Positions 1,577-27,638 of a DNA stretch of 64,000 nt are shown in pieces. Within the stretch, counting starts at the first letter, position 1, and every line of letters starts with the position of its first letter. The DNA is taken from contig NZ_BSEV01000002.1 in NCBI RefSeq assembly GCF_027922005.1, positions 558,001 through 622,000 on the forward strand. The letters run 5' to 3'. The translations under genes and the position numbers were made by a program. The DNA is from Streptosporangium carneum (GTDB lineage Bacteria > Actinomycetota > Actinomycetes > Streptosporangiales > Streptosporangiaceae). Under the pieces are notes generated by a model. It did not search any database. It saw nothing but the letters and a program-made list of their open reading frames with translations, and had not been told where the DNA came from.

Positions 1577-1872
1577 GCGAAGGAGTAAACCAGTTCGGAT
1601 CAGCACCGCCCCAGCCGTTTTCAGACATGGGCCCGCCTTCGGCCCGCGTCACCGGGCCGCTCGCGCTCACCCGTCACGCAGGGCCGTGGCGAACGCCGCG
1701 ACGAAGCCTTCGGGGGTGTCACGCCACATGATGTGCCCGGGCCTCGGGAACGAGGCGGGATGAGGCGGAGGAACGCGGCCGGACGACGCGAAAGGGCGGC
1801 CGGGCGGACGTTGTCGTCCGGCCGACCGCCCTTCGGCGATCTGTTCCGTGTGTTTCCGGCACGGAACGGGGG

Positions 1873-2255
1873 TGGAGGTGGCGGGAATCGAACCCGCGTC
1901 CTTCAACTCCAAGACAGGGCTTCTCCGGGCACAGCCTGCTTCGCTTTTCTCAGCCCCGGCGATCACGCAGGCAAGACGCCGACGGGCTCAGCCACTGTTA
2001 GATTTCCCGATCTTCCCCGTGGCCGGGTCGATCGGTTGAGCCTCCTAGCGATGCCGGATCCGGGCCGGAGGCGCTCCCGGGCCGGCAGAAGTCACTCGCT
2101 GCTTAGGCGGCGAGTGCCAGGCGAGCCTGGCTGACTTCGGAGTGCGTCTTATTGGCACTTATTGGTCGCGGTCACAGTGTTAACGAGGTTATGTCCGCAG
2201 TCCTCGACCCGCTTCCCCTGGCTTGCAAAGTCAAAGTCGAAACCAGTCACCCCCC
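1873..2255 (-). ncRNA. ssrA: Transfer-messenger RNA (tmRNA)
   Basis: The minus strand begins GGGGGTGACTGGTTTCGAC, the standard tmRNA 5' acceptor/D-like segment, and ends in the T-arm GCGGGTTCGATTCCCGC followed by CACCTCC and a discriminator A. The 5' GGGGGTG pairs with the 3' CACCTCC. CCA appears not to be encoded, since the genome reads CCC after the discriminator. The length, about 383 nt, is normal for one-piece tmRNA. The tag reading frame lies at 2103-2156. Its protein partner SmpB is encoded 2.4 kb upstream on the same strand, with a PBP homologue between. tmRNA-SmpB rescues stalled ribosomes and marks the nascent chain for proteolysis. Exact ends are accurate to within a few bases. Confidence 0.95.
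2103..2156 (-). other. tmRNA-encoded proteolysis tag reading frame
   Basis: Starting at the resume codon GCC (2154-2156) the frame reads ANKTHSEVSQARLALAA and then TAA (2103-2105). It begins AN and ends ALAA as in other actinobacterial tags, and the preceding GT before GCC matches the usual resume context. At 17 residues it is slightly longer than many known tags. The C-terminal LAA is the degron recognised by ClpXP-type proteases. Confidence 0.88.
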
Positions 2256-2776: not shown

Positions 2777-4660
2777 TCACATTCCGGCGTGCAGGCTCTG
2801 GAAGAACCGGCCCGCGATGTTCGCCCCCGCCGTGGAGTCGGTGCTCTCCGTCAGCACCGCCACCGCTATGTCCCCCTGCCATCCGACGAACCACGCCAGC
2901 GACTTGCGGCCCTGCGTGGCGACGGCGGTGATGCCGTGGACCGGGTCGCCCGGGGTCGCGGCGGAACGGGCCGAGCCCGTGGTCACCCCGGCGCGCATGA
3001 GGGTGCGGAGCGTGGCGACGGTCCTTTCGTCGATCTTGATCGGATCGGGCGCCTTCGGAGGCCCTGCCTCCGCCGAGGGGTCCGGGCTCTGCGGGTCGGT
3101 GACCAGGACGGGCGGGCGCCAGGTTCCCGAGGAGATCGCTCCCGCGACCAGCGCCATGGACAGCGGGCTGACCGAGACGTTCTGCCCGGCGATCGCCCTG
3201 GCCGTGGCCGCGTCGGTCTTCGGGAGCTTCAGCGAGCCGCTGAAGGACTTCAGCGGCAGGGTCCACCGCGAGTCGATGCCGAACTTGGCGGCGCTCGCCG
3301 CCAGCTCCGCGCCGTCGATCCTGCGGGCCAGCGCGGCCAGCGCGGTCACACAGCCGTTGGCGAAGTCGCCCTGGAGGGTGGGCGCGGTCCCACCCGGCGG
3401 ATTCGCCTGGTGGAACCTCGCGCCTCCGACGCTGCGGTCGACGGGGCAGGCGAGCTTCTGCTTGGTGCTGACCTGGGCCTTGAGCAGCGCCTCGACGGAC
3501 ATGATCGAGAAGGTGGTGCCCGCCGGGAACCTTCCGGCGAGGGCGTCCTTCTCCTGGTTGTACTCCTTGGTGCTGCCGACGGCGCGCACCTCGCCGGTCG
3601 AGGCCTGGACCGCGACCAGCATGCCGGGCGTGCCGGCGAACAGCGCGCTGTCGGCGGCCTTCTGGGTCGGGCCGTCGATCGTGGTGCGCACCGGCGAGGT
3701 CGGCCGGCTGGGCCGCCACTTGCGGAGCTCGGCCACCTGCTCCTTCGTCTTGAGGTCCACGGTGATCACGCGGGTCTCGGTGGACCCGGTCAGGTGCTCC
3801 TGGTAGGCCTTCTGCAGCCCGCTCCTGCCCACCGTGTCGCCGGCCCGCTGCGGGCCGCCGAGCTGCTGCTCGCTCTCCGGGGTCACGGCGGTGACCGTGC
3901 CGACGATCTGGGCGGGAGAGTCGGGCGCGACCGGCTGCTTCTGCGGCGAGATGGTGATGCCCTGGATGGCCGTCAGCTGGTCGCGGAGCTGGGCGTACTT
4001 GGCGCGTCCGAAGGTGACCAGCGGCACCTGGACGTTGGGCCTGGCGGACCTGATCCGGCTCAGCAGGCGGTCCTGCGGGAAGCCGGTGATCTTCGACAGC
4101 TGCTCGCAGACCGCGACGTCGTCCTTCAGCGTGGCCGGGACGACGTTCGCCACGTACAGCGTGGCCTCCTGCTGGAGCGGATCGCCGTTGCGGTCGAGGA
4201 TCGGCTTGCGCCCCTCGGGAATGACGTCCACGGCGAAGCGCTGGCCCTCGCGCAGCTCGGGATGGAGCACGCTGGGCGACCAGTGCACCTTCCAGTGACC
4301 GTCCACCAGCTGGAGGGGGAGCTTGCCGGTGTACTCCCACAGGGGGTTGTTCTCCCCCAGGTCGACCTCGGCCGCGAAATCGGCCTCCGACTGGTCTCCC
4401 GTACGCCTGATCCCCTTGACCTGGAAGCGGAACGAGGCCGCGTCGAGCTGGATCTTGGCGTCCTCCAGGGCCTTGCTCACCGCCTTCTCGTCCCCGTCGG
4501 TACGGCGGGCTGCGGCGGCGTAGTCGCCCGTCTGCCAGCCGACCAGGAAGTCACGCACCGCCTCGTGGGCCGAAGGCTCCTCGAGGCAGGCGGACAACAT
4601 GGGGGCCGTCGCCGCCAGCGCGAGCGCCGCGGCGACGGTTCGCCGAGCCTTCCCCGTCAC
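2777..4660 (-). CDS. Penicillin-binding-protein homologue without catalytic motifs (pseudo-transpeptidase lipoprotein)
   Basis: A 627-residue predicted lipoprotein: the signal sequence ends in lipobox LSAC with Cys25. Next come an NTF2-like (MecA_N type) domain at about 30-150, a PBP dimerisation-like region and a C-terminal transpeptidase fold. It aligns along the whole transpeptidase domain with the intact paralogue at 26109-27638, but all three active-site motifs are changed: SxxK is T382-T-F-S385 (PAGTTFS), SxN is G436-C-V438, and KTG is I577-T-A579. Acylation by peptidoglycan or beta-lactams is therefore not expected. The reading frame is intact and long, so this is probably a retained pseudoenzyme with a binding or scaffold role at the envelope. 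The GTG start lies 2 nt after the smpB stop, with AGGAACAGG inside smpB as a likely ribosome site, suggesting translational coupling. Confidence 0.85.
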   Translation of the reverse strand: MTGKARRTVAAALALAATAPMLSACLEEPSAHEAVRDFLVGWQTGDYAAAARRTDGDEKAVSKALEDAKIQLDAASFRFQVKGIRRTGDQSEADFAAEVDLGENNPLWEYTGKLPLQLVDGHWKVHWSPSVLHPELREGQRFAVDVIPEGRKPILDRNGDPLQQEATLYVANVVPATLKDDVAVCEQLSKITGFPQDRLLSRIRSARPNVQVPLVTFGRAKYAQLRDQLTAIQGITISPQKQPVAPDSPAQIVGTVTAVTPESEQQLGGPQRAGDTVGRSGLQKAYQEHLTGSTETRVITVDLKTKEQVAELRKWRPSRPTSPVRTTIDGPTQKAADSALFAGTPGMLVAVQASTGEVRAVGSTKEYNQEKDALAGRFPAGTTFSIMSVEALLKAQVSTKQKLACPVDRSVGGARFHQANPPGGTAPTLQGDFANGCVTALAALARRIDGAELAASAAKFGIDSRWTLPLKSFSGSLKLPKTDAATARAIAGQNVSVSPLSMALVAGAISSGTWRPPVLVTDPQSPDPSAEAGPPKAPDPIKIDERTVATLRTLMRAGVTTGSARSAATPGDPVHGITAVATQGRKSLAWFVGWQGDIAVAVLTESTDSTAGANIAGRFFQSLHAGM

Positions 4661-4662
4661 GG

Positions 4663-5130
4663 TTACCTGTTCCTGTGCCGCAGAGCGCGAGCCATCTCAC
4701 GCTTGGCCTGGTTCTCGGCGAGGGTCTGCCGCTTGTCCCAGTCCTTCTTGCCCTTGGCGAGGCCGATCTCGATCTTGGCCTTGCCGTCCTTGAAGTAGAT
4801 CGCGAGCGGCACCAGTGTGAGGCCGCCCTCCTTCGTCTTGGAGACCAGCTTGTCGATCTCCTTGCGGTGGAGCAGAAGCTTGCGGGTGCGACGCGCCGCG
4901 TGGTTGGTCCACGTCCCCATGGTGTACTCGGGGATGTGGACGTTGATCAGCCAGGCCTCGCCGTCCTTGATGACGGCGTAGCCGTCGACGAGGGAGGCCC
5001 TGCCGAGGCGTAGCGACTTGACCTCCGTGCCCTGCAACACGAGACCAGCTTCGTAGGTGTCCTCGATGTGGTAGTCGTGCCAGGCACGCTTGTTCTGGGC
5101 GATGACCTTCCGCCCGGTCTCACGTGGCAT
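4663..5130 (-). CDS. smpB: SsrA-binding protein SmpB
   Basis: A 155-residue protein with the family's standard features throughout: N-terminal [23 protein letters not shown], the oligonucleotide-binding beta-barrel with [14 protein letters not shown], the HIPEYTMG segment, and a basic C-terminal tail ending RALRHRNR that sits in the ribosomal mRNA channel. It binds the tRNA-like part of tmRNA and delivers it to stalled ribosomes. It lies downstream of ftsE-ftsX and upstream of the PBP homologue on the same strand, with ssrA further along, the common actinobacterial order ftsE-ftsX-smpB-ssrA with one extra gene. Confidence 0.98.
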
Positions 5131-5210: not shown

Positions 5211-6119
5211 TCAGACACGCAGGTAGCGGCGGAGCGTGACGAACGAGGCGAGCACACAGATGAGCACACCGAAGATCATGGTGAGGCTGATCACCGAGGC
5301 GACGGTCTCCCAGGTGAGCGGACTGTTGTTGGCGAGGTACAGCTGCACGCCGTCGAAGAGGAAGACCTTGCTGACGATCAGCAGCACGGCGGCGACCACG
5401 CCGCCGATCAGGCCCGCGATGACGCCCTCCATCACGAAGGGAAGCTGGATGTAGAGGTTCGAGGCGCCGACGAGCCGCATGATGCCGGTCTCCCGCCTGC
5501 GGTTGTAGGCGGACAGGCGCACCGTGTTGCCGATCAGCAGCGTGGCCGCGAAGACCAGGATGATGGCCACGACCAGGGCCGCCCAGCGGAGCTTCTCCAG
5601 CAGCCCGAAGAACTTCTCCAGGATCTCCTTCTGGTTGACCACGTTGGAGACGCCGGGAGCGCCCTTGAGGGCCTCGATGACCGCCGCGTAGCTGTCGGGG
5701 TCCTTGAGCTTCACCCGGAAGGACTCGGGCATGTCACCGGGCTGCACCACCGACAGCATCACGGTGTCGTTCTTGAACTGCTCGCGGTAGTTGGCGTACG
5801 CCGTCGCCGCGTCCTCGAAGTCCACCTTCTGGACCTGGGGCATGGCCTCGATCTGCGCCCTGAGGGCGGCCCGCTCCGGCTCGTTGACTCCGCCGCTGCC
5901 CTTGCACTGCGGGAAGGGGTCGTTCTTCTTGCACAGGAAGACGGAGATCTCGACCTTGTCCGACCAGAAGTCCTTCATGGTGGAGATCTGAGAGTTGATC
6001 ATCAGGCCGACGCCCAGCAACGCCATGCCGATCGCCACGGTCACGATGACCGCGATGGTCATCGTGAGGTTACGGCGGAGGCCGATCCAGACCTCGGAGA
6101 AGATGAAGTTTGCCCGCAT
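5211..6119 (-). CDS. ftsX: Cell division ABC-transporter-like permease FtsX
   Basis: A 302-residue integral membrane protein with the FtsX layout: one N-terminal membrane segment at about 20-42, a large extracellular loop, then three C-terminal membrane segments from about 205 onward. The loop carries a Cys pair, C63 and C72, in [13 protein letters not shown], as found in actinobacterial FtsX, where it probably forms a disulfide. Together with FtsE it controls peptidoglycan hydrolases outside the membrane rather than transporting a solute. The start ATG is preceded by AGGAAGAG on the coding strand. The gene follows ftsE by 36 nt and precedes smpB by about 80 nt. Confidence 0.97.
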
Positions 6120-6155: not shown

Positions 6156-6845
6156 TCAGTACGCCTGGCCGTACACGCCACGCGACTGGTCTCGGACGAT
6201 CTTGCCGTCCTCCAGTTCCACTACGCGCTTGCGCATGGAGTCGACGATGGCCGCGTCGTGCGTGGCCATGACGACGGTGGTGCCGGTCCGGTTGATCCGG
6301 TCGAGCACCTTCATGATGCCGATGCTTGTGGCGGGGTCGATGTTTCCCGTCGGCTCGTCGGCCAGCAGGATCATCGGGCGGTTGACGAAGGCGCGGGCCA
6401 TGGCGACCCGCTGCTGCTCACCGCCGGACAGCTCGTCGGGCATCCGGTGGGCCTTGCCCTCGAGACCGACCAGCTCGACGACCTCGGGCACGACCTTGCG
6501 GATGAACCGGCGCGGCTTGCCGATGACCTCCAGGGCGAACGCGACGTTCTCGTAGACGTTCTTGTTCGGCAGCAGCCGGAAGTCCTGGAAGACGCAGCCG
6601 ATCCGGCGGCGCAGGTGCGGGATCTTGAAGTTGGACAGTCGGGCGAGATCCTTGCCGGCCACGTGGATCGCCCCGGAGTCGGGACGCTCCTCCTTCAGGA
6701 CCAGGCGGAGGAAGGTCGACTTCCCGGACCCCGAAGGGCCGACGAGGAACACGAACTCGCCCTTGTCGACATCGACGCTGACGTGGTCCAACGCGGGCCG
6801 GTTCTGGTTCGCGTAGACCTTGGTGACATTATCAAAATGGATCAC
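6156..6845 (-). CDS. ftsE: Cell division ATP-binding protein FtsE
   Basis: A 229-residue ABC ATPase with Walker [10 protein letters not shown], signature LSGGEQQR, Walker [11 protein letters not shown] and the switch histidine in MATHD. The N-terminus [11 protein letters not shown] is typical of FtsE. The start is GTG (6843-6845) with no obvious Shine-Dalgarno sequence; a TAGACT hexamer on the coding strand about 20 nt upstream could be a -10 element giving a very short leader. It acts with FtsX at the division or elongation site to activate cell-wall hydrolases. Confidence 0.97.
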
Positions 6846-7458: not shown

Positions 7459-8577
7459 CTACGCCTCGCCGTCCGCCTCCTGGCGGCGGGTCCAGCGGAT
7501 CTCCGACTCGATGAACTCGTCGAGGTCGCCGTCGAGCACCGCGCCGGGGTTGCCCGCCTCCGTGCCCGTCCGCAGGTCCTTGACGATCTGGTAGGGGTGC
7601 AGCACGTAGTTGCGGATCTGCGTGCCCCACGAGGTGGTGGCCTCGCCCCTGATCTCGTTGAGCGCCGCGGCCTCCTCCTGCCGCTTGCGCTCCAGCAGCT
7701 TGGACTGCAGGACCGCCATCGCGGTCGCCTTGTTCTGCAGCTGCGAGCGCTCGTTCTGGCAGGAGACCACGATGCCGGTCGGCAGGTGGGTCAGCCGGAC
7801 CGCGGAGTCGGTGGTGTTGACGCCCTGGCCGCCGGGGCCGGAGGAGCGGTAGACGTCGACCCGCAGGTCGTCCTCGTTGATGTCGATGTGGTCGGTCGTC
7901 TCGACGACCGGCACCACGTCGACCCCGGCGAAGGAGGTCTGGCGGCGGCCCTGGTTGTCGAAGGGGCTGATCCGCACCAGGCGGTGCGTGCCGTGCTCAC
8001 CGCGCAGGGTGCCGTAGGCGTAGGGCGCCTTGACCGTGAAGGTGGCCGACTTGATGCCCGCCTCCTCCGCGTAGGAGGTCTCGTAGACCTCCGTCGGGTA
8101 GCCCTTGCGCTCGGCCCACCGGATGTACATCCGCAGGAGCATCTGCGCCCAGTCGGCCGCGTCCACGCCGCCGGCCTGGGAGTTGATCGTGACGACCGCC
8201 TCACGGGAGTCGTACTCGCCCGACAGGAGGGTGCGGACCTCCAGAGCGCCGATGTCGCTCCTGAGGGAGGCGAGCTCGCGGTCGGCCTCCTCGCGGGTGT
8301 CCTCGTCGTCCTCGGCCGCGGCGAGCTCGTACAGGACTCCCAGGTCCTCCAGACGCTGCCCGAGCGCCTCGACCTTGTTGACCTCACCCTGCAGGTAGGA
8401 GAGCTTGCTGGTGACCTTCTGGGCCCGCTCCTGGTCGTTCCACAGGTCGGGCGCGGCCGCCTGCTCACCGAGCTCCTCGATCTGCTTGCGCATCGCGTCG
8501 AGGTCGAGCACGTCCTGAATGCTGTTCAGCGTGCCGACGAGCTCGTTGATCTCTTCTGCCGGATCGATGAGTGCCAC
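7459..8577 (-). CDS. prfB: Peptide chain release factor 2
   Basis: A 372-residue class I release factor. The SPF tripeptide in [15 protein letters not shown] marks RF2, which reads UGA and UAA, and [14 protein letters not shown] carries the GGQ motif that triggers peptidyl-tRNA hydrolysis. The frame is continuous, so the E. coli type of programmed +1 frameshift is absent. I chose the GTG at 8575-8577 because the protein there begins [14 protein letters not shown], as in other actinobacterial RF2. The open frame runs on upstream without conservation. The coding strand reads TACCCT, eight bases, then GTG, with no Shine-Dalgarno sequence, which suggests a leaderless mRNA. Confidence 0.97.
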
Positions 8578-8591
8578 GTCTGTAAAGGGTA
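8578..8591 (-). promoter_or_regulatory. Possible -10 element of a leaderless prfB transcript
   Basis: On the minus strand the TANNNT-type hexamer TACCCT (8586-8591) is followed by eight bases and the prfB GTG start, and there is no purine-rich ribosome site. This is the geometry of leaderless actinobacterial mRNAs. No clear -35 box was found. Confidence 0.45.
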
Positions 8592-8685
8592 CGCGACCGG
8601 CGCACCCCGTTGTGTCCGGCGTTGTGCACGGCCCGCGCCGTGCCATGGCTAGCATGGGCGCCGAGGGGACCATGAGGAGGCGGAC

Positions 8686-9735
8686 GTGCGGGGTCGTGGG
8701 CGACGGGGTCTGCTCGTGTTCGCCCTTGCCCTGTTGGCCGGGACCGCGGCGTGCTCCGGCTCGGGCGCGGGGAACAGCGTGCCGAAGCGCGAGGCGCGGG
8801 CGACGGGCGCGACCTCGTCCCCTGCCCCCGCCGCGCTGCGGACGCCCGCCGTCACGCTGGCCGAGGCGGGCAGGGCGCTGTCCGGGATCCTGGGCGCGGG
8901 GGCGGTGCTGGAGGGCGCGACCCCGCATCTGGAGGCCGACCGCAGAAACATCCTGGAGCAGACCCGTGACGCCCAGGAGGCGCTCACCATGGCCGCCTTC
9001 AACAGCTCGGCGGGGGCGCTGCCCCACTACACATGGGGCAGGCCGGAGCTGCTGGTGCCGAGGGAGCAGCAGGCCCCCCTCTGGTTCGCCGCGATCGTCG
9101 ACCGCGAGGACAGCGCGGGCGACGTGCGCTCCGCCGTGCTCACCCTGACCAAGTACGGCGAGCACGCGTGGTACCTCAGCTCGACCTCGCTGCTCGAGCG
9201 GGACGCGCCCGTGCCGGAGATCGCCAAGGACGCGGAGGGGTACGCCGTCGCGCTGGCCGAGGACGACCCGACCACGGCGATCAGCCCGCGGCTCATGGCC
9301 CCGCTGCACGCCACCTCCGCCGAGGAGGGAAGCGCGGGGTTCGCCGCCGGGCTGATCGAGAAGGGGCCGCACACCACCGGCTACGCCGAGGAGATCGCGG
9401 GCAAGCGGCCGAAGTACAAGAGCGACTGCCTCGGCTACGACTCGATCTTCGGCGCGAGCAACTACCCGGTGCGCGCGCTGCGCACCGCCGACGGCGGGGC
9501 CATGGTCATGTACTCGCTGATCAGGACCACCAGTGTGACGGCCAAGATCGAGCCGTGCGCCGACATCAGGGTTCCGAGGGACGCCGAGAGGCTGGCCTCG
9601 GCCCCCGGAGCGCGCAAGGAACTGCGCACCGTGGAGACGCAGCAGTACGTCAGCACGGTCCCCGCGAAGAACAGCCGCACCCTGGCCAGGGTCATCGGCT
9701 ACCTGGGCGGCGTCACCAAGGTGATGGCCAACTGA
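8686..9735 (+). CDS. Predicted secreted lipoprotein, function unknown
   Basis: A 349-residue protein starting at GTG with a strong GAGGAGG ribosome site. The first 22 residues are a lipoprotein signal peptide (RR-rich n-region, hydrophobic [11 protein letters not shown], lipobox TAAC with Cys23), followed by a low-complexity G/S/P/T linker to about residue 50. The mature part is soluble and contains two further cysteines (KSDCLGY and EPCADI) that may form a disulfide. I do not recognise a catalytic motif. It is divergent from prfB and convergent with the glutamate dehydrogenase gene, from which a terminator hairpin separates it. Confidence 0.8.
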
Positions 9736-26108: not shown

Positions 26109-27638
26109 ATGAAACGCAAGGGCTTGGTGGCGGTCGCGGTCCTGGTGCCGGTCGTCGCGGCCGGCGGGACCGCGTGGGCGCTGCGCACCCAGGGGTCGCC
26201 ACGGGAGACCGCACAGGAGTTCCTGGCCGCCTGGAGCAGGCAGGACTACCCGGCGATGCGGGCGCTCACCGTCGACGCGCCGGACGACTTCGACCAGCGG
26301 TACCGCCGTTTCAGGACCGATCTGAAGCTGTCGGGGGCCGGCTTCGAGGTCACCGGGACCTCCGAGTCCCGGGTCGCCTTCCACGCCAGCCTGCGGGGGC
26401 CGGTGAACTGGGCGTACGACGGGGCGCTCCAGCTCGTCGAGCACGACCGGTCATGGCGGGTCAAATGGACCCCCGCGGCCCTTCACCCGCGCCTGACGAC
26501 CGGGACACGGCTGCGGACCGTGCAGGTCAAGGCCGAGCAGGCACCCGTCCTCGCCGCCGACGGCACCCGCATCGACACCGCCTCCGCGCCCGGCTCGGTG
26601 CAGCAACTCGTCGAAGGGCTCAGGAAACGGTACGACTCCCGCCTCACCGGCGCCTCGTCCGCGCGGGTCGAGCTGCTTCGGGGCTCGGAACGGATCGCCA
26701 CGCTCGCCACGGCGGACGCGAAGGCGGGCACGGAGCTGCGGACCACGATCGACCTGCGCGTCCACCGCGCCGCCGCCAAGGCCCTCGAATCCGTGGACAA
26801 GCCCGCCTCACTGGTCGCGCTGCGGCCCTCGACCGGCGAGATCCTGGCGGTGGCCAACAAACCGGGCGGGTTCAACCGGGCGCTGCTCGGCCACTACCCG
26901 CCGGGCTCGACCTTCAAGGTGGTCACCGCCTCTGCCCTCGTCGCCGACGGCATGACGGCCGGCGAACGCGTCGCCTGCCCCGCCGAGCAGAACATCGGCG
27001 GCTTCCCCTTCCACAACGCCGGGTTCAAGGACTACGGGACGATCCCGCTGCGCGAGGCGTTCGCGCACTCGTGCAACACCACGTTCGGGCGGCTGAGCGT
27101 GGACAGGCTCGGCGGGAGGCGGTTGGCCGACGTGGCGCGGAGCTTCGGGTTCGACGGGCCCGTGGACCCCGGGGTGCCCGCCGTACGGGCCCGGTTCCCC
27201 GACACCAGGGACGACACCGACCTCGCCTCCGCCTCGATCGGCCAGGGCCGCGTCCTGACCAGCCCGCTGAACATGGCCACCGTCGCCGCCGCGATCGCCG
27301 ACGGCTCCTGGCGTCCGCCCCGCCTGGTGGAGACCGGCCTGCTGCCCCAGGCCGCCCAGCCGAGAAAGCTGGAACCCGCCGTGGTCAGGGCGCTGCGCAC
27401 GCTGATGCCCGCCGTGGTGGTCGAGGGCACGGCCAGCGCCGTCTCCTTCCCCGCGGGCACGGCGGGCAAGACGGGCACCGCCGAGTACGGCACCGGCAAG
27501 GAGCCCCCGTCGCACGCCTGGTTCATCGGCTACCGGGGCGACCTGGCCTTCTCGGTCATCGTCGAGGGCGGCGGCGCCGGCTCCAAGGTCGCCGCCCCCA
27601 TAGCCGGCCGCTTCCTCCAAGCCCTGTCCCGGCGATGA
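26109..27638 (+). CDS. Penicillin-binding protein with intact transpeptidase domain
   Basis: A 509-residue membrane-anchored protein: one N-terminal segment (about 5-25), an NTF2-like MecA_N-type domain (about 30-140), a short linker and a transpeptidase domain. The catalytic motifs are complete: S267-T-F-K270, S321-C-N323 and K454-T-G456. It should cross-link peptidoglycan outside the membrane and be acylated by beta-lactams. A GGGGGA ribosome site precedes ATG 26109. It aligns through the catalytic domain with the inactive homologue at 2777-4660 but is shorter in the middle part. Divergent from the LysR gene. Confidence 0.93.
   Translation: MKRKGLVAVAVLVPVVAAGGTAWALRTQGSPRETAQEFLAAWSRQDYPAMRALTVDAPDDFDQRYRRFRTDLKLSGAGFEVTGTSESRVAFHASLRGPVNWAYDGALQLVEHDRSWRVKWTPAALHPRLTTGTRLRTVQVKAEQAPVLAADGTRIDTASAPGSVQQLVEGLRKRYDSRLTGASSARVELLRGSERIATLATADAKAGTELRTTIDLRVHRAAAKALESVDKPASLVALRPSTGEILAVANKPGGFNRALLGHYPPGSTFKVVTASALVADGMTAGERVACPAEQNIGGFPFHNAGFKDYGTIPLREAFAHSCNTTFGRLSVDRLGGRRLADVARSFGFDGPVDPGVPAVRARFPDTRDDTDLASASIGQGRVLTSPLNMATVAAAIADGSWRPPRLVETGLLPQAAQPRKLEPAVVRALRTLMPAVVVEGTASAVSFPAGTAGKTGTAEYGTGKEPPSHAWFIGYRGDLAFSVIVEGGGAGSKVAAPIAGRFLQALSRR

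Follow-up and report, generated by a model that had tools for sequence, protein, structure and literature searches.

The gene considered here occupies positions 2777..4660 (-) of the window, by which we mean the whole stretch of 64,000 nucleotides that was analysed, and encodes a putative lipoprotein of 627 amino acids which, judged from its open reading frame (ORF), its Pfam domains and its syntenic orthologues, is a pseudo class B penicillin-binding protein (PBP). The ORF begins with a GTG codon, and the stretch AGGAACAGG lies 5' of this start. Three domains were matched above the Pfam cut-off: an NTF2-like MecA_N domain (residues 30-140; 4241..4573, (-)), a dimerisation domain termed PBP_dimer (residues 151-304; 3749..4210, (-)), and a degenerate Transpeptidase domain (residues 346-622; 2795..3625, (-)), which is also apparent in a structure model. 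In its domain order the window protein has the MecA_N architecture of PBP2a and PBP5, and the same three models were matched in 14/14 members of set A1; Pfam gave no fourth domain in the window protein or the members of set A1, and thus no signalling domain was seen. A lipobox, LSAC25, is present at the N-terminus, and a simple pattern detected a lipobox-like stretch in 131/141 distinct orthologues. Some deep members of the motif-less clade described below are without it, and in these a membrane helix may serve as the anchor; several carry long N-terminal extensions (L057, L068, L073, L084, L085, L088, L089 and L090 were noted for one or the other).

Directly upstream, and separated from the start codon by 2 nt, lies smpB (4663..5130, (-); NF003843, TIGR00086), which is preceded by ftsX (5211..6119, (-); NF038346 FtsX_actino), ftsE (6156..6845, (-); TIGR02673) and an ORF at 7459..9372 (-), the C-terminal residues 276-625 of which represent prfB (TIGR00020). 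The tmRNA gene ssrA follows at 1871..2254 (-), so that the arrangement of smpB, PBP homologue and tmRNA reported in a first-pass annotation of this DNA holds.

A protein search gave a match in 150/150 sampled genomes of the family, a few of these matches being to paralogues or to fragments truncated at a contig end; 90 of these genomes were fetched and read, and the other 60 are known as search matches, some of them possibly to paralogues. Together with 80 named loci (Streptosporangium, Planobispora, Nonomuraea, Microbispora and others) they provided 170 loci, of which 141 are distinct. In 170/170 loci read, including 90/90 of the family genomes, smpB immediately precedes the PBP homologue in the same orientation; the frame of the latter is open at most 17 nt from the smpB stop codon in all 170, and a start codon lies within 100 nt of it in 169. 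The sequences of G056, G040 and G391 are truncated at contig ends, and G105 gave no smpB match. In 80/80 named loci all four genes prfB, ftsE, ftsX and smpB precede the PBP homologue in the same orientation, and the tmRNA gene lies downstream in 78/80, the remaining two loci ending too soon. The ftsX and smpB matches are 2.6 kb apart in one named locus. A gene for an S41 C-terminal processing peptidase is placed between ftsX and smpB in L242 (5446-6762; family f45), L247 (4388-5620; f35) and L248 (6053-7270; f18) and is absent from this position in the window.

Catalytic motifs in the window protein and its orthologues

Class B PBPs are generally taken to be transpeptidases. Active members carry the motifs SxxK, SxN and KTG, none of which is present in the window protein. 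The corresponding sites of this full-length homologue read TTFS (residues 382-385; 3506..3517, (-)), GCV (436-438; 3347..3355, (-)) and ITA (577-579; 2924..2932, (-)), exactly as in the first-pass annotation, which had called the alignment secure on account of a paralogue in the window. This paralogue (26109..27638, (+)), in which MecA_N and Transpeptidase domains were recognised, is 36% identical to the pseudo-PBP over 379 columns and does read STFK, SCN and KTG at the aligned sites. In an AlphaFold2 model of the window protein (mean pLDDT 86.8), residue 382 is located at the start of a helix (381-394) and residue 577 in a strand (574-583), positions which we take to be the sites of the catalytic motifs in active PBPs. 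The PBP/transpeptidase fold is intact in this model, although its best 50 Foldseek matches superpose at no more than TM 0.51-0.65; lipobox, NTF2-like domain and predicted fold thus agree with the anchor and domains that had been described as kept. The structure alignment comprises 46 of the 80 named loci and the window protein. The VIA-align rows span residues 142-627, with MecA_N outside the aligned part.

The same losses recur throughout the orthologues: an in-register SxxK, SxN or K[TS]G was found in 0/141 distinct sequences each. Single residues persist in some of them (Ser382 and Ser436 in 16 each, Asn438 in one), and Lys385 and Lys577 occur in none of the 141. The positions of the former cleft (382, 436, 438 and 577-579) are variable, residue 382 being T or S in 99/141 and otherwise E, M, Q, G, L, F, D or A, and the frame of the cleft is partly conserved (G381, F384, T439, SPL 498-500, W590). 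A sequencing error or a peculiarity of one allele was rejected as the cause, since the loss is seen in 141 distinct orthologues. We regard it as near certain that catalysis has been lost.

The protein might still be an enzyme that employs another nucleophile, either Thr/Ser382 or Cys437 (3350..3352, (-)), the latter being present, like Cys405 (3446..3448, (-)), in 141/141 distinct orthologues. The frequency of T or S at position 382 would fit this assumption, but Lys385 is missing throughout, residue 382 is replaced by eight other residues, and both cysteines occur equally in 34/34 relatives outside the motif-less clade, so that they look structural and possibly form a disulfide pair. Cys437 was rejected as a new nucleophile for the same reason, and we consider continued enzymatic activity of this kind very improbable.

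Selection and the shift of constraint

All 170 loci retain open frames of at least 580 amino acids, and the median dN/dS of the whole gene is 0.33 (NG86, 194 close pairs), compared with 0.16 for smpB (193 pairs); NG86 values in GC-rich DNA serve as a relative and not as an absolute guide. Decay into a pseudogene has some points in its favour, as the transpeptidase domain evolves faster than in active proteins (median omega within the genus 0.46, against 0.26 and 0.33 for the active paralogues, or 0.38 for the C27-type paralogue with other region borders) and as the match in G136 shows a TGA inside the aligned stretch. However, the frame of G136 is open as well (757 aa) and the median omega lies well below 1 in every domain; with open frames and a median dN/dS of 0.33 the decaying pseudogene was rejected, and we regard it as practically out of the question. 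The first-pass annotation had proposed a retained pseudoenzyme, naming as checks the conservation of the losses in smpB-linked orthologues and a dN/dS well below 1, and a decaying gene as contrary evidence; both checks favour its proposal, and no broken frame was encountered in the 170 loci read. As the catalytic residues are missing throughout while purifying selection maintains the gene, we are highly confident that the smpB-linked gene encodes a conserved pseudoenzyme.

The constraint is unevenly distributed along the protein. Among the 194 close pairs, the NG86 medians were 0.25 for MecA_N, with single pairs reaching 1.76, 0.30 for the dimerisation domain and 0.37 for the transpeptidase domain. 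The latter is thus constrained, though on these sequence comparisons more loosely than in active PBPs, and, since purifying selection continues to act on it (median omega 0.46 in the genus), it is more than a spacer. In the active relatives MecA_N evolves at about 1.4-1.9 times the rate of the transpeptidase domain, whereas in the motif-less clade this factor is 0.6-0.9, and distance comparisons identify MecA_N as the most strongly constrained part of the protein there. At matched transpeptidase-domain distances, the median MecA_N/transpeptidase distance ratios were 0.71, 0.77 and 0.88 for the motif-less clade (13, 214 and 990 pairs) and 1.61, 1.50 and 1.36 for the relatives outside it (6, 149 and 404 pairs, two exceptional sequences of family f13 included), the pairs not being independent of each other. 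A matched control within the same Streptosporangium genomes gave a dN ratio of 0.57 for the motif-less gene (36/36 pairs below 1), against 1.91 for the 26109-type paralogue (0/15 pairs below 1) and 1.81 for the C27-type paralogue (3/36 pairs below 1). Furthermore, conservation is confined to the clade at 23 positions, of which ten fall into MecA_N (residues 30-140; among them V35, G56, D73, D100 and G102), nine into residues 141-320 and four into the transpeptidase domain. By comparison of sequences, constraint has moved from the transpeptidase to the MecA_N domain in the motif-less clade, which is a new result. This shift and the clade-specific positions, the best evidence on function available here, therefore suggest that the working surface now lies mainly in the NTF2-like domain and that the protein probably plays a structural or regulatory part.

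The same data bear on the proposal that the protein is a sensor or decoy for peptidoglycan fragments or beta-lactams, in which the former cleft would bind muropeptides non-covalently and signal damage to the wall. Conservation of the fold and of parts of the cleft frame would be expected of such a sensor, as would the lipobox-like stretch of most orthologues, but the cleft positions themselves vary, the three Pfam domains include none for signalling, and MecA_N is under stronger constraint than the transpeptidase domain; we judge this role to be distinctly unlikely.

Active paralogues, same-slot relatives and origin of the loss

Both active paralogues of the window genome (26109-27638 and L249:1472-3100) have a shortened layout in which MecA_N and Transpeptidase were matched and PBP_dimer was not, the search of 26109-27638 giving no PBP_dimer match at E <= 0.001. 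In the window and in G123, G005, G403, G411, G096, G118, G064 and G009, the contig that carries the motif-less gene also has the active paralogue, about 15-24 kb away; the distance is about 67 kb in G119, and in G012 the two are not linked.

Such proteins could be the catalytic partners of the motif-less one if, after a duplication, catalysis was left to the paralogue (C27-type or 26109-27638) and the smpB-linked copy became a non-catalytic, allosteric or heteromeric subunit. In agreement with this, a C27-type match at E <= 1e-112 was obtained in 127/150 family genomes, three f46 genomes with an intact smpB-linked copy have this copy as their sole match at both E <= 1e-60 and E <= 1e-40, and the active paralogues of the window genome branch beside the smpB-linked PBP of f46 (see below). 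Yet 23/150 family genomes lack a C27-type match at E <= 1e-112, several of them having weaker matches that may be divergent copies, and among nine family genomes picked because they looked poor in such proteins, seven gave no match at E <= 1e-40 besides the motif-less gene, including G140, which is a single contig and 100% complete. The idea that all genomes depend on a C27-type partner was rejected on these counts; partnership with this type is possible but probably not a general rule, and we regard the partner hypothesis as a whole as unlikely.

A search of the order covered 121 genomes, 117 of family f1, one of f45 and three of f46. The f45 locus is also motif-less, and the three f46 genomes (3/3) carry a PBP with intact motifs in the same slot after smpB. 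Of 29 class loci outside the order, 3/29 have smpB within the stretch that was fetched, and in the remaining 26 it was not found there. In G155 and G231 it is immediately followed by a PBP with intact motifs, and in G365 347 nt separate it from the opening of such a PBP frame. Among the 34 relatives outside the clade, which were chosen by best full-length matches and not at random and include the two paralogues of the window genome, 32 keep all three motifs, and five of these abut smpB. The first-pass annotation had held that same-position relatives with intact motifs would speak against its reading; they exist (L243-L247), but only outside the motif-less clade. Because an intact PBP in this slot is common to f46, f7 and f35, the slot appears to be older than the loss, and the link to smpB would predate it. 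The suggested tie to ribosome rescue did not hold up, as intact-motif PBPs occupy the same slot elsewhere and the block includes the cell-division pair ftsE-ftsX; a rescue role deduced from synteny alone was rejected on the former ground, and we see no evidence of such a function, which the position of the gene does not require.

The origin of the loss was addressed with unrooted trees from which the motif columns had been dropped. In the first (84 rows) a single branch (SH-aLRT 100) divides all 50 motif-less rows from the others, and the second (50 rows; 27 motif-less and seven other rows of the first set omitted) likewise separates its 23 motif-less rows (100/100); a further tree with all columns gives the same split. 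A single loss therefore suffices. In these trees the smpB-linked PBP of f46 is not the nearest relative of the motif-less clade and groups with the intact paralogues of the window genome, C27:96471-98099 and 26109-27638, with moderate support (90/84, the tool's mark being 95/80). Orthology within the slot consequently rests on position, direct descent there is a positional argument, and an old duplication followed by differing losses is possible.

The two exceptions among the 34 relatives, L204 and L205 (G183 and G161; family f13), are PBPs of the MecA_N type which read TAFK, SCN and TTG. Both genomes also carry a full-motif copy (L198, L199), and from their sequences these variants may represent a second, independent and partial loss.

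Candidate function and comparison with known systems

The explanation which we prefer, with somewhat better than even confidence, is a lipid-anchored pseudo-transpeptidase that works through its NTF2-like domain by binding. Its ancestor, as the intact-motif relatives in the slot suggest, would have been a working class B PBP of the PBP2a/PBP5 layout located after ftsE-ftsX-smpB. Comparison supports a loss of all three motifs before this family and a neighbouring one in the same order diversified, as well as retention of the product as a lipid-anchored pseudo-transpeptidase; selection would then have acted most heavily on the N-terminal NTF2-like domain, as the comparison shows, and the transpeptidase domain would have kept its fold and cysteine pair while its former active site relaxed. 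Displayed outside the membrane, the NTF2-like domain may contact peptidoglycan or a divisome partner, the likeliest candidates being FtsX, which has an extracellular domain and is encoded in the same gene block, or an active PBP. In this way the protein could act as a tether or regulator of wall remodelling and would itself form no cross-links, the dead transpeptidase domain serving as scaffold or docking surface. The FtsEX gene order is also seen with intact-motif PBPs, and because the same block carries these elsewhere the case for an FtsEX partnership is weak. In its broader form, the proposal is that one conversion near the base of an actinobacterial order turned a class B PBP into a universally kept, non-enzymatic envelope adaptor with the NTF2-like domain as functional unit and the transpeptidase domain as scaffold, possibly a partner of FtsEX or of wall synthases; this we put forward tentatively, at slightly less than even chances.

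This large group of soil actinobacteria, sampled over nearly a whole order, thus conserves a pseudoenzyme with the fold of class B PBPs, and we found no earlier description of it; in the literature searches made, no title or beginning of an abstract described a PBP of this motif-less kind next to smpB. One article names class A PBPs of Streptomyces that lack SxxK; its class B part, as far as the excerpt extends, reports no motif loss (PMC6273383). Annotation by domains would label the motif-less genes transpeptidases, which this clade-wide conserved member very probably cannot be. The intact-motif relatives in the same slot offer a before-and-after comparison for non-catalytic roles of PBPs, and the constraint points to a function in the NTF2-like domain, which PBP2a and PBP5 share.

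For an accessory NTF2-like domain on a wall protein, Campylobacter Pgp2 provides a parallel: according to the excerpt, a pocket of its NTF2 domain binds peptidoglycan, but Pgp2 is an active LD-carboxypeptidase with demonstrated binding, which in the pseudo-PBP would be presumed by analogy (PMC8038945). Closer in layout are PBP2a (MecA) of Staphylococcus aureus and PBP5 of Enterococcus faecium, which rank among the top matches both by sequence and by full-length fold. Both have the order MecA_N, PBP_dimer, Transpeptidase; in contrast to them, the pseudo-PBP has lost all three catalytic motifs, is not known to bind beta-lactams, and its constraint peaks in MecA_N. PbpA of Mycobacterium tuberculosis and PBP3 of Pseudomonas aeruginosa, aligned over residues 142-627 of the model and hence outside MecA_N, are, unlike the pseudo-PBP, active class B PBPs. 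The smpB-linked class B PBPs of other actinobacterial families (L243-L247) share with it the slot after ftsE-ftsX-smpB, with the S41 peptidase gene interposed between ftsX and smpB in L247, and the pair Cys405/Cys437; they differ in having kept SxxK, SCN and KTG, and MecA_N is the faster-evolving domain in the intact-motif relatives, unlike in the motif-less clade.
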